Positions 29,282 to 34,096 of a stretch of 38,915 bases of DNA are shown here, one piece after another (positions within the stretch are counted from its first letter, which is position 1; the number at the start of each line of letters is the position of its first letter). The position numbers and the translations under genes were made by a program. The notes under the pieces were generated by a model that was not told the origin of the DNA, searched no databases, and was given only the letters and a program-made list of their open reading frames with translations. Source of the stretch: Cocleimonas sp. (GTDB lineage Bacteria > Pseudomonadota > Gammaproteobacteria > Thiotrichales > Thiotrichaceae); NCBI GenBank assembly GCA_023146545.1, contig JAGLBW010000040.1, positions 1 to 38,915 of the forward strand, written 5' to 3'.

Positions 29282-32200
29282 ATGAAACATATTATTCGAT
29301 ATTTTTTATTCGTTCCTCTTCTTTTGTTCTCTGCTCTCTTTGCGCATAATGATGAAAAAAAAGAAGTTTCTCATGCCCAAGACGATGCGTATTGGGCGGC
29401 ACTCGCCAAAAACTACCCACGTTACACTCCTTCTTTACAAAGACGATCAGCTAAAGTAGTCCCCCCTTATCAAGCAGGTCAATGGGGTGAGATTATTGAT
29501 TGGCCACATATTCCTGTGTCTGCGGCTAATTTGCCTGATGGTCGTCTGATCACTTGGGCTTCCAATAAAAAAACCAGTTTTCCGCGTGGGGTTGAATACA
29601 CCTATGCTACCTTGTGGAATCCAAAAACAGGTCAATTTACCGAAAAAAATAATACCTACCATGATATGTTTTGCAGTCATCTCTCACTGCTTGAGGATGG
29701 ACGTTTGTTTGTAACAGGGGGAACGAATTGGGTTAAAACGACCAGCATTTTTGATTATCGAACCAATCAATGGTCAAGAAGTGATGATATGGGGCGCGGG
29801 CGTTGGTATCCCACCAATGTGACCTTGCCTTCGGGGCAAGTGTTCAGTGCATTAGGTTCAGGTGGTGGGCGTTACCCTGAATTATGGACAGAAGGTCAGG
29901 GCTGGAAAGTATTAACAGGTATCAGCTTGCAAGATCCTATTTTGCAATATGATGCTTTTTATGAAAGGGCATGGTGGCCGTTATTGCATCTTGCACCCCA
30001 AGGTAATATTTTTCATTCAGGGCCCACCCCACAAATGCACAGTATTAGTACTAAAGCGTTGGGACGTGTAACTCAAGTCGGTGACCTTATTAGGGATTGG
30101 TATCCTAAGCATGGAACAACTGTAATGTTTGATAAGGGTAAGTTACTGGTAGCGGGGGGTGCTATTTCAGGTGTGAATCAAAAAAGCAGTCATAAAGCAA
30201 TGGTGATTGATATTAATGCTGCTACCCCTAAAATTACCCCGCTACCATCCATGCGGTATGCCCGTAAGTTCCATAATAGTGTGATGTTGCCAACAGGGGA
30301 TGTCTTAGTCATTGGTGGCAATACTTCAGGCGTAAAATTTAATGATCAAGGCAGTATCTTGCCTCCAGAACTGTGGAATCCTAAAACCCAGCAATGGAAA
30401 ACATTAGCACCCAGTAGTGTGCCTCGAAACTATCATTCTGTTGCCTTATTATTAACCGATGGAAGTGTTATCTCGGGGGGGGGAGGGTTGTGTGATTGTG
30501 CCGCAGATCATCAAAATGCTCAACGCTATAGTCCTCCTTATTTGTTTAATCAGGATGGCTCAAAGGCACAGCGTCCTTTAATTATTGAAGCCCCTAAGGT
30601 TATTCGAAACGGTGAAACCTTTACGCTAAAAAGTGATACTGATATTGAGCGTTTTTCCTTAATAAAAATGTCCGCAACAACGCATGCGGTGAACACCGAT
30701 TTACGCTTTTTATCCCCTAAATTTAGTCGCCAACAAGAGGGCGGTTATCGTATTATTGCTGCTGCAAATAAAAACGTATTAACCGCTGGTTATTGGATGT
30801 TATTTGCGATTAACCGTGCTGGTGTTCCTTCGGTTGCAAGAATTATTCAAGTGACAACCCTAAATGGTCTTAAAATAGAGCAACTTACCCATCAATCACA
30901 TCGGGCTAATCATTCGTTGTCTTTAAAGGTGAAGCATCATCCTTTTTCCGCAACGGGTGGTGTTTTTAGCGCTCAGAATATACCGATCGGTTTGGTCATT
31001 AATAAAACAACAGGGACGATTTCAGGAACACCTACAGCGGTCGGGGATTATAATGTTACGCTACAATTTGAACAGGCGGGTTTAAAAACAGCAATTCAGT
31101 TTTCTTGGCGTATTTATAGACAAGGAAAAGTAGCGGGGGTCTCGTATGAGTACTACCAAGGCGAAGGAAATCATCTGCCTGATTTCAACCAATTAGCGGC
31201 TCAACAAAAAAAGGTGAAGTATGGCGTTGTTAATCATTTTAATTTACCCTCCTCAATCACAACACAAGGGGCAGCAGTACGTTTATCGGCTCAAGTTAAG
31301 CTAGCGAAAGCAGATCATTATACGTTTTACCTACGTTCTCAAGGAATCAGTCGTTTATGGGTTGATGGGAAGCGCCTGTTGGATAATGAAAGCATTAATG
31401 AGATTACAGAGCAAACGGTTGTTTTATATTTAACACAAGGTGAGCATCATGTTGTTATTGAATACCTGAATACAAAAGGGCTGCCTTATTTAAACCTAAG
31501 CTATTCAAATCAATATTTTAAAAAGAAAAAACTACCCCGTTCGATTTTAAGTCAATCCCCCTTTTCAAATGTAGCACCTCATATTTTTCCTGTTGTTAGC
31601 CAGAAAAAACAGGTGGGTAATTTTGTTGCCTTTTCGGTCATTGCCAATGATGCTAATGGGGATCTGCTACGTTATAGCGCCGCAGGTTTGCCGAAAGGTT
31701 TAAGTATTAATGCATCTACGGGGATTATTTCGGGAACATCCTCAAAAATAGGGGACTACAATGTGGTCATTGTGGTAACCGATACGAAAGGAAAAAAAAC
31801 ATCAATAACAATGGCTTGGCATATCGTGGGGAAATTGCAGATTACCCCGATTATTAAACCGCCAAAACCACTGGGGCGTTCGATTATTTACAATGTGCAG
31901 ACGAATTCACAGCTTGAAGTCGAGTATAAATGGCAATTTGGTGATGGCACACCGACGACAGCCTATTCAACATCAGAACAGATACAGCATCGTTTCACTC
32001 AAGCAGGTAACTACAAAGTCACCGTGATTGCAAAAGATAAGGCGGGTAATAAGGCAACGTACCAATTTGGACAATCAGTTTACTTGCCGATGACAACAGG
32101 TCGAGCCAAATCGTCAATGAGCATTGTTTATAATACCCATGCTGAAAGTGATCATCTGTGGAATGTGAACCCTGATAATCAAACGGTAACGGGGTTTAAT

Positions 32201-34096
32201 GCCACCCTTCAGACAAAAATAGTCGAAATTAAGGTGGGTGAAACGCCCCGCGCTTTAGCGTTTTCGCCCAAGGGAACCTTATGGGTAACGAATAAAACCA
32301 GTGCTACGGTTAGTATCATTGATACCCAAAAACTAGAAGTGATCCGCACCATTAAATTACCGACTGCTTCTCAGCCTCACGGTATTATTTTTTCTGAAAA
32401 GGATAATACCGCTTATATTGCCTTGGAAGCGACAGGGGAAATTATAAAAATAGCAGGAGCAACAGGAAAAATAATCACGCGGTTAGCTGTGGGTAATAAT
32501 CCGCGTCATCTAACGCTCAATGCAGCTGAAAATAAGCTGTATGTTTCACGTTATATCACACCCCCTTTACCGAGTGAATCAAACGCTTCTCCTCAAACTC
32601 AGCGTAAGGGAATTAAACAAGGGGGTGAAGTCGTGGTGGTTGGGCTTGATCCGTTTCATTTCGAAACAAGTATTGTGCTACAACACAGTAATCGTCAAGA
32701 TTCTGAACACAGTGCACGCGGTCTTCCTAACTATCTTGGTGCCGTTGCGCTCTCGCCTGATGGTCTCAGTGGTTGGGTTCCTTCTAAGCAAGATAATATT
32801 AAACGTGGAAAATACCGTGATGGCTTACCATTAACGCATGATAATACGGTAAGAAGCATTACCTCTAAAATTAATACAGCAACGGCAAAAGAATTACCCA
32901 GCGCCCGTGTTGATCATGATAATGGCGGGCTTGCCAGTGCCGCAACGTTTGCTCGTTATGGTAATTATTTATTTGTTGCATTAGAAAGCAGTCGAGAAAT
33001 TGCGGTGGTGGATGCATACAACCATGACACCCGCTTTCGGATTAAGACAGAAAGAGCACCACAAGGTTTAGTCATTTCACCTGATGGTCTAACCTTGTAC
33101 AGTCATAATTTTATGGATCGGAGTATCACCGCCTATGATCTTTATGGGCTTATTTATACTCAGAGTGATCAAGCACCTTTAACTGTACGTTTTCAAACAG
33201 TTAGCAAAGAGCGGTTATCTGCTCGTGTTTTGCGCGGTAAGCAATTTTTTTATGATGGGAAGGATACGCGTTTGGCTAAAAATGGTTATATGAGTTGTGC
33301 GTCATGCCATAATGAAGGTCGAGATGATGGCCGCGTTTGGGATCTGACGCAAGTAGGCGAAGGTTTGCGTAATACCATTAGTTTAGTTGGTCGCGGGGGA
33401 ATGGATCACGGTCTGTTACATTGGAGCGGAAATTTTGATGAAGTACAGGATTTTGAAGGACAAATCCGTACTTTATCAGGTGGAACAGGCTTGATGACAA
33501 AGAATGACTTTCATCACGGGACACGGGATAGACCTTTAGGAGAGAAAAAAACAGGGGTGAGTCAAGCACTTGATGATTTAGCTGCCTATATCACCAGTTT
33601 AAAAGCAATACCAAAAAGTCCCTACCGCAACCAGCAAGCGGCTCAGGTGGAGCAAGGTCAGCGGTTGTTTGTTGAAAAAGGCTGTCTTCATTGTCACTCA
33701 GGACAATATTTTACCGACAGTGCCCCGAATAACTTGCATGATATTGGTACACTGAAGACCAGCAGTGGCAAGCGTTTACAGGCGAAATTAAAAGGGATTG
33801 ATACGCCAACACTCCTCGGTGTTTGGCAAACAGCACCGTATTTACACAATGGTTCAGCACTTACTTTGATTGATGCGATAAAAGCGCATAAGGACACGGT
33901 ATTAACGGATAATGAGCGGATTAAATTGAGCCTTTACCTTCGACAGCTAGAAGCAGGGGATAAGGTGACGGTAACAAGACCTGAAGCAAAACCGAAAGTA
34001 AAAAAATCAGGAGGCAGTGTGTCCTTCTCGTTACTCTTCTTTATCGTATTGATGTCTTTTTTCGTATTATACCGTCGCGTTAATCATTTCGTTTGA
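29282..34096 (+). CDS. Exported copper-radical oxidase / PA14 / PKD / YVTN propeller / di-heme cytochrome c fusion with GlyGly-CTERM-like tail
   Basis: 1604 aa. A signal peptide ends near residue 21. Residues about 70-520 form a kelch propeller plus C-terminal domain like galactose or glyoxal oxidase. All copper-radical residues appear: C131 (MFCSH) and Y176 (RWYPTN) for the Tyr-Cys cofactor, Y384-H385 (NYHSVALLL ... GGGGLCDC) and H468 (THAVNTDLR). The stacking Trp of galactose oxidase is not evident, so the substrate may be an aldehyde or another alcohol. An Ig-like domain (about 530-610), a PA14 domain (about 616-755), a second Ig-like domain (about 765-855), PKD (about 865-940) and a YVTN propeller (about 945-1325) follow. 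The di-heme part has CASCH (1339-1343) and CLHCH (1468-1472), plus TAPYLHNGSALTL, as in cytochrome c peroxidase/MauG relatives. GG (1577-1578), a hydrophobic helix and YRR end the protein. It is probably monocistronic. Confidence 0.88.
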   Translation: MKHIIRYFLFVPLLLFSALFAHNDEKKEVSHAQDDAYWAALAKNYPRYTPSLQRRSAKVVPPYQAGQWGEIIDWPHIPVSAANLPDGRLITWASNKKTSFPRGVEYTYATLWNPKTGQFTEKNNTYHDMFCSHLSLLEDGRLFVTGGTNWVKTTSIFDYRTNQWSRSDDMGRGRWYPTNVTLPSGQVFSALGSGGGRYPELWTEGQGWKVLTGISLQDPILQYDAFYERAWWPLLHLAPQGNIFHSGPTPQMHSISTKALGRVTQVGDLIRDWYPKHGTTVMFDKGKLLVAGGAISGVNQKSSHKAMVIDINAATPKITPLPSMRYARKFHNSVMLPTGDVLVIGGNTSGVKFNDQGSILPPELWNPKTQQWKTLAPSSVPRNYHSVALLLTDGSVISGGGGLCDCAADHQNAQRYSPPYLFNQDGSKAQRPLIIEAPKVIRNGETFTLKSDTDIERFSLIKMSATTHAVNTDLRFLSPKFSRQQEGGYRIIAAANKNVLTAGYWMLFAINRAGVPSVARIIQVTTLNGLKIEQLTHQSHRANHSLSLKVKHHPFSATGGVFSAQNIPIGLVINKTTGTISGTPTAVGDYNVTLQFEQAGLKTAIQFSWRIYRQGKVAGVSYEYYQGEGNHLPDFNQLAAQQKKVKYGVVNHFNLPSSITTQGAAVRLSAQVKLAKADHYTFYLRSQGISRLWVDGKRLLDNESINEITEQTVVLYLTQGEHHVVIEYLNTKGLPYLNLSYSNQYFKKKKLPRSILSQSPFSNVAPHIFPVVSQKKQVGNFVAFSVIANDANGDLLRYSAAGLPKGLSINASTGIISGTSSKIGDYNVVIVVTDTKGKKTSITMAWHIVGKLQITPIIKPPKPLGRSIIYNVQTNSQLEVEYKWQFGDGTPTTAYSTSEQIQHRFTQAGNYKVTVIAKDKAGNKATYQFGQSVYLPMTTGRAKSSMSIVYNTHAESDHLWNVNPDNQTVTGFNATLQTKIVEIKVGETPRALAFSPKGTLWVTNKTSATVSIIDTQKLEVIRTIKLPTASQPHGIIFSEKDNTAYIALEATGEIIKIAGATGKIITRLAVGNNPRHLTLNAAENKLYVSRYITPPLPSESNASPQTQRKGIKQGGEVVVVGLDPFHFETSIVLQHSNRQDSEHSARGLPNYLGAVALSPDGLSGWVPSKQDNIKRGKYRDGLPLTHDNTVRSITSKINTATAKELPSARVDHDNGGLASAATFARYGNYLFVALESSREIAVVDAYNHDTRFRIKTERAPQGLVISPDGLTLYSHNFMDRSITAYDLYGLIYTQSDQAPLTVRFQTVSKERLSARVLRGKQFFYDGKDTRLAKNGYMSCASCHNEGRDDGRVWDLTQVGEGLRNTISLVGRGGMDHGLLHWSGNFDEVQDFEGQIRTLSGGTGLMTKNDFHHGTRDRPLGEKKTGVSQALDDLAAYITSLKAIPKSPYRNQQAAQVEQGQRLFVEKGCLHCHSGQYFTDSAPNNLHDIGTLKTSSGKRLQAKLKGIDTPTLLGVWQTAPYLHNGSALTLIDAIKAHKDTVLTDNERIKLSLYLRQLEAGDKVTVTRPEAKPKVKKSGGSVSFSLLFFIVLMSFFVLYRRVNHFV

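Follow-up and report, generated by a model that had tools for sequence, protein, structure and literature searches.

A single open reading frame of Cocleimonas sp., a marine sulfur-filament bacterium, encodes an exported chain of 1604 residues in which a copper-radical oxidase is tethered, through Ig-like, PA14 and PKD modules, to a seven-bladed propeller and a di-haem cytochrome domain that resemble the β and γ subunits of hydrazine synthase. The gene lies in a window of 38,915 nucleotides, the whole stretch of DNA that was analysed, and its features are listed in Table 1. What is new here is the combination of two known kinds of protein, with unexpected natural members that lack the Tyr-Cys cross-link; no published description of this fusion was found in the open-access literature. 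Copper-radical oxidases are prized as biocatalysts; the H2O2 that they make inactivates them, and peroxidase is usually added to the reaction. A natural version that joins oxidase and haem in one chain is found in at least six phyla and could reveal the way in which this peroxide is dealt with, or the electrons diverted, by bacteria.

Table 1. Features of the fused gene (window coordinates) and loci of the adjoining MauG-type gene.
Feature	Position	Strand	Basis
Whole fused gene, 1604 aa	29282..34096	+	ORF call; full-length conservation in relatives
Putative Sec-type signal peptide, residues about 1-22	29282..29347	+	Read from sequence
Copper-radical oxidase catalytic unit (kelch propeller and E-set), residues 61-525	29462..30856	+	Pfam, phmmer, fold
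Cys131, cross-linking Cys (galactose oxidase C228), codon TGC; Ala in 7 relatives	29672..29674	+	Alignment, sequence
Trp175-Tyr176, candidate second-shell Trp and cross-link Tyr (galactose oxidase Y272)	29804..29809	+	Alignment
Tyr384-His385, copper ligands (galactose oxidase Y495-H496)	30431..30436	+	Alignment
His468, copper ligand (galactose oxidase H581)	30683..30685	+	Alignment
Ig-like He_PIG module 1	30869..31117	+	Pfam, two stretches; approximate boundaries, by eye
PA14 module, residues 657-732	31250..31477	+	Pfam
Ig-like He_PIG module 2, residues 770-846	31589..31819	+	Pfam
PKD module, residues 874-925	31901..32056	+	Pfam
Seven-bladed YVTN-type propeller, hydrazine-synthase-β-like, residues 946-1293	32117..33160	+	Model, structure search
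Di-haem c domain, CCP fold, hydrazine-synthase-γ-like, residues 1308-1559	33203..33958	+	Pfam, sequence search, profile alignment
Haem site 1, CASCH, residues 1339-1343	33296..33310	+	Invariant in 66/66
Trp1381, counterpart of inter-haem Trp94 (bCCP)/Trp93 (MauG)	33422..33424	+	66/66; profile alignment
EVQDFE (E1387, D1390, E1392), putative distal acids	33440..33457	+	E1387 and D1390 in 66/66, E1392 in 65/66
Haem site 2, CLHCH, residues 1468-1472	33683..33697	+	Invariant in 66/66
His1536, at the position of the bCCP axial Met/MauG axial Tyr	33887..33889	+	His in 50/65
GlyGly-CTERM-like C-terminal sorting tail	34004..34093	+	Sequence; own TIGR03501 score below cut-off
MauG/BthA-type di-haem gene adjoining the fused gene	L040:3287-5002, L048:13703-15289, L058:7155-8876 and 19 other loci; also L158:13758-15029		

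Domain organization and genomic context

The initial annotation placed a copper-radical oxidase and a di-haem cytochrome in one exported chain, with PA14, PKD, Ig-like and YVTN modules between them. Both statements are borne out, the first by Pfam, phmmer, the signal sequence and the relatives, and the second by Pfam and the propeller model. The single chain starts with ATG, and its Pfam matches comprise GO-like_E_set (residues 431–524), kelch, two He_PIG, PA14, PKD and YVTN-type repeats, followed in the C-terminal part by CCP_MauG (residues 1319–1389) and RoxA-like_Cyt-c (residues 1508–1534). The two CxxCH sites and the TAPYLHNGS element (residues 1517–1525) described previously are likewise present. 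Read directly, the chain begins with a Sec-type signal and ends with Gly-Gly, a hydrophobic stretch and Arg-Arg. The homologue from Leucothrix pacifica passes the GlyGly-CTERM model TIGR03501 (19.1 against a cut-off of 15.5 bits), whereas the window protein falls below it. A rhombosortase scores above cut-off in eight of ten genomes (the window's own and nine relatives); none does so in the window's own genome, which is 90% complete. The fused protein is likely to be anchored at the cell surface.

The base composition of the fused gene does not depart from that of the rest of the window. It is flanked by a topoisomerase I gene upstream and a cystathionine/homoserine-sulfhydrylase-type gene downstream, and this gene order is the same in a relative from the genus; thus, no obvious operon is present here. 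A promoter scan remained at background level (14 sites against 13.0 expected), and terminator-like sites, most of them inside the fused gene, numbered 12 compared to 5.6 in shuffles.

Distribution and age of the fusion

Four relatives from the genus (G001, G002, G004 and G005) carry the fusion at full length or nearly so, with 54–57% identity, and in two others (G006 and G007) it is cut by contig ends. The L. pacifica homologue aligns over the full length with 50% identity. A scan of 84,980 species genomes identified 80 loci when an alignment was used as the query and none with a single protein, and this pattern-based scan undercounts members. Local ORF and BLAST analysis found the oxidase, propeller and di-haem domain in one ORF in most of the 80 loci. 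About 60 loci in all bear the oxidase. The full architecture extends over at least six phyla, with oxidase-bearing loci in Gammaproteobacteria (Thiotrichaceae, Granulosicoccaceae, Woeseiaceae and Cellvibrionaceae), Verrucomicrobiota, Chloroflexota, Rhodothermota, Myxococcota and Planctomycetota, as named in the record titles of genomes many of which are MAGs. Within the class the fusion is rare: a propeller–di-haem profile matched 5 of 369 genomes at an E-value of 1e-80, and some of these matches lack the oxidase.

An assembly chimera is ruled out by the relatives in independent genomes, one of which (G079) is a single contig of 2.4 Mb; the fusion is also found in the named strains L. pacifica and Haloferula luteola. 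We conclude that it is real and old, and is not a product of chance or assembly.

The oxidase-free proteins fall into a single group of 13 in the haem tree, apart from the oxidase-bearing proteins. Their architecture includes an LVIVD propeller, Big_5 and PKD, to which CBM6 or laminin-G is sometimes added; at ten loci (L073, L075, L081, L082, L085, L086, L093, L094, L097 and L102), LVIVD, Big_5 and PKD modules are joined to the YVTN propeller and di-haem module with no copper oxidase. Five rows inside the fused group that appeared to have no oxidase are contig-end fragments (L071, L074, L077 and L090) or a split ORF (L109). The latter, a Cocleimonas homologue at L109:7009-13650, consists of two ORFs divided between oxidase and propeller by a frameshift, a stop or an assembly error. 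A 1335-residue ORF of a Leucothrix-type genome (L030), with a low-identity match to the propeller and first haem region (G020:C1:1330715-1332091), appears to be a more distant propeller–haem protein.

The copper-radical oxidase half

Residues 56–524 match solved galactose oxidases in phmmer searches, with E-values of 1.6e-100 for the bacterial enzyme 9g8h and about 4e-72 for the Fusarium enzyme 1gof. Residue assignments in both halves of the protein were made by alignment. C131, Y176, Y384, H385 and H468 align with C228, Y272, Y495, H496 and H581 of galactose oxidase; Y176, Y384 and H385 are invariant in all 57 distinct sequences, and H468 in all 56 that cover it. The kelch propeller and C-terminal E-set fold are present, as judged by fold in L100, a compact Chloroflexi homologue of 1180 residues, and by sequence in the window protein. 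The model of L100 (pLDDT 87.3, pTM 0.66) matches 9g43 over its oxidase part with a Z-score of 54.2 and an rmsd of 1.8 Å for 454 residues, so that, at the level of the predicted fold, the copper residues would not be placed apart. By sequence, the oxidase half has the fold of a copper-radical oxidase in which the first shell is complete; its activity is predicted.

The initial annotation considered every cofactor residue to be retained, which holds for the first shell. The second-shell Trp290 of galactose oxidase, however, is absent, the alignment placing GSGGG where galactose oxidase has GSWSG; instead, a tryptophan (W175) directly precedes the cross-link tyrosine, as it does in 56 of the 57 sequences. 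W175 is a candidate for the second-shell tryptophan. The AA5_1 aldehyde oxidase FgrAldOx also has a tryptophan directly before its cross-link tyrosine (W509-Y510; PMC13094651). Although the window oxidase has this AA5_1 trait, its sequence as a whole is nearer to AA5_2 and, for this reason, we do not assign it to AA5_1. Leucothrix-type genomes additionally contain several free-standing copper-radical oxidases of 775–968 residues (L010 and L011, with matches in G015, G020 and G026), of which L010 and L011 keep the galactose oxidase-type Trp290, with RGY and GSWSG.

Relatives with alanine in place of the cross-linking cysteine

The position of Cys131 is occupied by cysteine in 49 and by alanine in 7 of the 56 sequences that cover it, one of the 57 rows lacking the region. 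The alanine variants (L033, L034, L036, L038, L039, L042 and L045) all belong to the Thiotrichaceae and all keep both halves, including the haem module. No substitute cysteine was found near their copper site, only a GGGLCxC-type pair. They retain the tryptophan before the cross-link tyrosine; a GlxA mutant without the cross-link is cited in PMC13094651 as one in which the second unpaired electron moves to the second-shell tryptophan.

The window protein is nested among the alanine lineages in the combined tree (support 98/98), and its cysteine was either kept or regained. An AU test rejected a tree with all alanine lineages together (p = 0.0067) and did not reject one with a six-row subset together (p = 0.067); a single origin of all alanine variants without the window protein is, thus, disfavored (p rounded to 0.007). 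Either the cysteine was lost at least three times in parallel, or it was lost once and later regained, and the regain of cysteine from alanine takes two base changes.

Decay of the oxidase half in these lineages is unsupported. Their copper ligands are retained, and over the oxidase half they are 65–68% identical to the window protein within the genus and 59% identical in L036, about as similar as the cysteine-bearing L. pacifica protein (64%), so no decay is visible. A link between the alanine change and genome-wide absence of a MauG-type gene is not upheld by the distribution of that gene, which occurs both in the window's own genome (Cys) and in G001, an Ala genome where a contig end truncates it, and is absent from G002, G005 and G006; the match in G004 resembles an ordinary bCCP. 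The alanine variants are expected to be poor oxidases, and offer a natural test of whether copper-radical oxidases can do without the Tyr-Cys cofactor by which they are considered to be defined.

The propeller and di-haem half

Residues 941–1575 of the window protein were modeled with a pLDDT of 93.3. The best Foldseek match of the propeller is hydrazine synthase β (5c2v_B), which ranks second by Z-score (35.9) after an archaeal YVTN protein; propeller matches also dominate a structure search with the di-haem part. The sequence of the di-haem domain is nearest to hydrazine synthase γ (E-value 1.3e-12), with bCCPs next, and its profile aligns with bCCPs at an hhalign probability of 99.9%. On these comparisons, the hydrazine synthase β-γ unit is a closer match for the fused haem module than either MauG or bCCP. 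A 2025 report described distant homologues of this β-γ unit, itself fused, as common in environmental bacteria (PMC12758564). The window protein scores 58.7 bits against the hydrazine synthase family NF052342, compared to a cut-off of 1250. Among hydrazine synthase traits, γ-His144 is replaced by Trp1381, and the di-haem domain has no cysteine besides those of the two CxxCH sites and, hence, no third haem-I cysteine. RoxA-level similarity over the whole protein is absent and limited to a short Cyt-c stretch (scores of 14.8 against 1000 for RoxA and 19.8 against 900 for RoxB).

The haem part had initially been described as a relative of cytochrome c peroxidase and MauG. The CCP fold and the two CxxCH sites, invariant in all 66 sequences, agree with that description, and Gln1394 occupies the position of bCCP Gln104 in 53 of 66. 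In its functional sense the description is weakened: profile alignment with bCCPs gave no counterpart for the distal glutamate (E114 in bCCP, E113 in MauG and E277 in BthA), for the proline or for a His71-type ligand; at the axial Met/Tyr position, 50 of 65 sequences have His, three have Met and the rest have other residues; and the nearest solved relative is hydrazine synthase β/γ. The distal glutamate is required for peroxide activation in BthA (PMC6405878). E1387, D1390, E1392 or E1360 (the last two each in 65 of 66 sequences) could serve as the acid for peroxide chemistry. As the distal glutamate and proline are missing and conserved acids are available, the case for peroxide chemistry is weakened, but such chemistry may still occur.

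A separate MauG-type gene beside the oxidase gene

Of the 61 oxidase-bearing loci, 22 have a separate gene of the MauG/MbnH type next to the fused gene, compared to none of 15 oxidase-free loci (Fisher p = 0.004, with loci counted without regard to phylogeny). This tally is limited by contig ends, and many of the 61 loci are incomplete. Often the two genes share a strand and overlap or are spaced by at most about 150 bp; sometimes they are farther apart or on opposite strands. All 22 adjoining proteins have the glutamine, proline and glutamate, and 20 have the MauG-type tyrosine, the other two being unread by the motif pattern. Many carry an N-terminal MbnP or YtkA-like domain, or are accompanied by a YtkA-like protein as a separate ORF; Haloferula luteola has the MbnP version. 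G079 provides a further case of adjacency, and L. pacifica has a YtkA-MauG pair on the other strand, with 154 bp between its end and the fused gene. In the window's genome, the YtkA-MauG genes are on another contig (C15), where a YtkA-like gene, a MauG-type gene and a gene with a weak MauE match lie in a row (L145:99-2886), away from the fused oxidase.

Leucothrix-type genomes have the YtkA-MauG pair in an operon with copper amine oxidase-domain proteins. These operons (L150:6348-12522, L149:5213-11437 and L151:6690-13011) encode a small exported protein, two Cu_amine_oxid proteins (one with Ig/cadherin), a YtkA-like protein and a MauG-type protein, with domains scanned in L150 and judged from size and sequence in L149 and L151. 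They appear to represent a copper amine oxidase-like system with the same YtkA/MauG helper cassette.

If maturation or copper loading of the oxidase is haem-dependent, the adjoining MauG-type protein would be a better candidate for this role than the fused haems. Operons of methanethiol oxidase, SCO and MauG have been reported (PMC5739008), and H2O2 made by GlxA is used by the haem peroxidase DtpA (PMC4736821). By analogy, the pattern shared with these systems would combine a copper oxidase that makes H2O2, a helper of the haem peroxidase type and a partner that binds copper. With the MauG-type neighbor, the methanethiol oxidase pattern would come to include copper-radical oxidases and probably copper amine oxidase-like proteins as well. 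Through its copper-binding-type domain, this neighbor also makes metallation and maturation of bacterial copper-radical oxidases directly testable.

Coupling of the two halves

Our tentative best guess, which falls short of probable, is that a tethered alcohol or aldehyde oxidase makes H2O2, which the haem module then consumes or uses; handling of H2O2 in cis is the likeliest link between the halves. The chain would be exported and probably surface-anchored, with the Ig, PA14 and PKD modules tethering the oxidase to the hydrazine-synthase-β-γ-like propeller and di-haem module. The substrate of the copper half would be an alcohol or aldehyde, perhaps carried by a glycan, and its oxidation would convert O2 to H2O2. 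The peroxide would then diffuse locally to the haem module and react at the N-terminal haem, which has no obvious sixth ligand, while the C-terminal haem, mostly bis-His, would supply or pass electrons, so that the module either removes the peroxide or employs it as an oxidant. Copper and O2 alone, or the separate neighboring MauG-type protein, would account for copper loading and Tyr-Cys formation, rather than the fused haems. This reading is supported by the retention of both halves together, the invariant metal ligands and the intact first shell of the oxidase and, by analogy, the GlxA-DtpA precedent (PMC4736821). Several observations count against it: the distal glutamate and proline have no aligned counterpart, the alanine variants retain the haem module, the module also exists without the oxidase beside an LVIVD propeller, and an extracellular peroxidase would need an electron donor.

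The linker between oxidase and propeller ranges from 98 to 1057 residues (median 414), and the relative arrangement of the halves is not confidently fixed in the homologue model, as indicated by its pTM; an obligatory close contact between copper and haem is therefore unlikely as a general mechanism, although a flexible, transient contact is possible. Diffusible H2O2 or independent functions fit these data better than a fixed electron path. The same data weigh on the proposal that the oxidase acts as a dehydrogenase, passing the two substrate electrons from copper through the two haems to an outside acceptor with little H2O2 formed, as in cellobiose dehydrogenase or quinohaemoprotein dehydrogenases. 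Two haems would suit a two-electron oxidation, the catalytic glutamate is missing, and the C-terminal haem, mostly bis-His, resembles haem γ-II of hydrazine synthase, an electron-transfer haem (PMC12607021). Nevertheless, the first haem lacks the conserved sixth ligand expected of a pure electron carrier, and the haem module is found without the oxidase too, and we consider this proposal unlikely. The occurrence of the module with an unrelated LVIVD propeller and carbohydrate-binding modules in another lineage instead favors separate jobs, in which the haem module has its own substrate (an organic molecule, a polymer, NO, a sulfide-derived species or another protein) and is merely co-displayed, the oxidase half of the alanine lineages having shifted to binding or to a different copper chemistry. 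The existence of these variants and the nearest solved relative, an NO-reducing type of subunit, are consistent with such independence. We regard it as doubtful, ranking ahead of electron transfer and behind peroxide handling: in about 60 oxidase-bearing proteins from different phyla the two halves have stayed together and the metal ligands do not vary, a pattern suggestive of cooperation.

The initial annotation also raised the idea that the Tyr-Cys cofactor is matured by the haem module of the same chain. The parallel would be MauG, which matures tryptophan tryptophylquinone. The CCP/MauG fold and the conserved inter-haem tryptophan are compatible with this idea, which is nonetheless highly improbable. 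Since seven relatives without the cysteine keep the haem module, maturation cannot be its general job, and oxidase-free proteins bear the same module. The axial tyrosine, glutamate and proline of MauG are absent from the fused module, whereas the separate gene that adjoins many of the oxidase genes encodes all the MauG-type residues. Furthermore, copper-radical oxidases form the cross-link in vitro without a haem protein, and GlxA needs copper (PMC4736821).

Comparison with known systems

The fused protein shares its fold and first-shell copper residues with the AA5_2 (CAZy) galactose oxidases of Pseudarthrobacter (9g43/9g8h) and Fusarium (1GOF), the former having about 40% identity to the homologue model over 450 aligned residues. 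It differs from them in lacking Trp290 and in having a tryptophan before the cross-link tyrosine, whereas the galactose oxidases are free-standing and have no haem module. The tryptophan-tyrosine pair is shared with fungal FgrAldOx (AA5_1, PDB 9N3U; PMC13094651), although the overall sequence of the fused protein is far closer to galactose oxidase. Bacterial GlxA works beside a haem peroxidase, DtpA (PMC4736821), but the latter is an unrelated DyP peroxidase and is unfused.

Hydrazine synthase β-γ and its environmental homologues (NF052342; PMC12758564) likewise consist of a seven-bladed propeller followed by a CCP-fold di-haem domain whose second haem is bis-His, and the homologues outside anammox also have a tryptophan in place of γ-His144 (PMC12758564). 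In contrast, the fused protein is far below the family cut-off, lacks the third haem-I cysteine and is joined to a copper oxidase. The fold, the two CxxCH sites, the inter-haem tryptophan and the glutamine are common to the fused haem module and to MauG, BthA, MbnH and bCCP; the fused module differs in having no aligned distal glutamate or proline, and a histidine in place of the axial Met/Tyr in most members. Methanethiol oxidase (PMC5739008), too, is a copper oxidase that produces H2O2, and its gene is found with those for a MauG-like di-haem protein and a copper-binding partner, the latter two being fused in some species. It is, however, an unrelated copper enzyme, and the haem protein is not joined to the oxidase itself.
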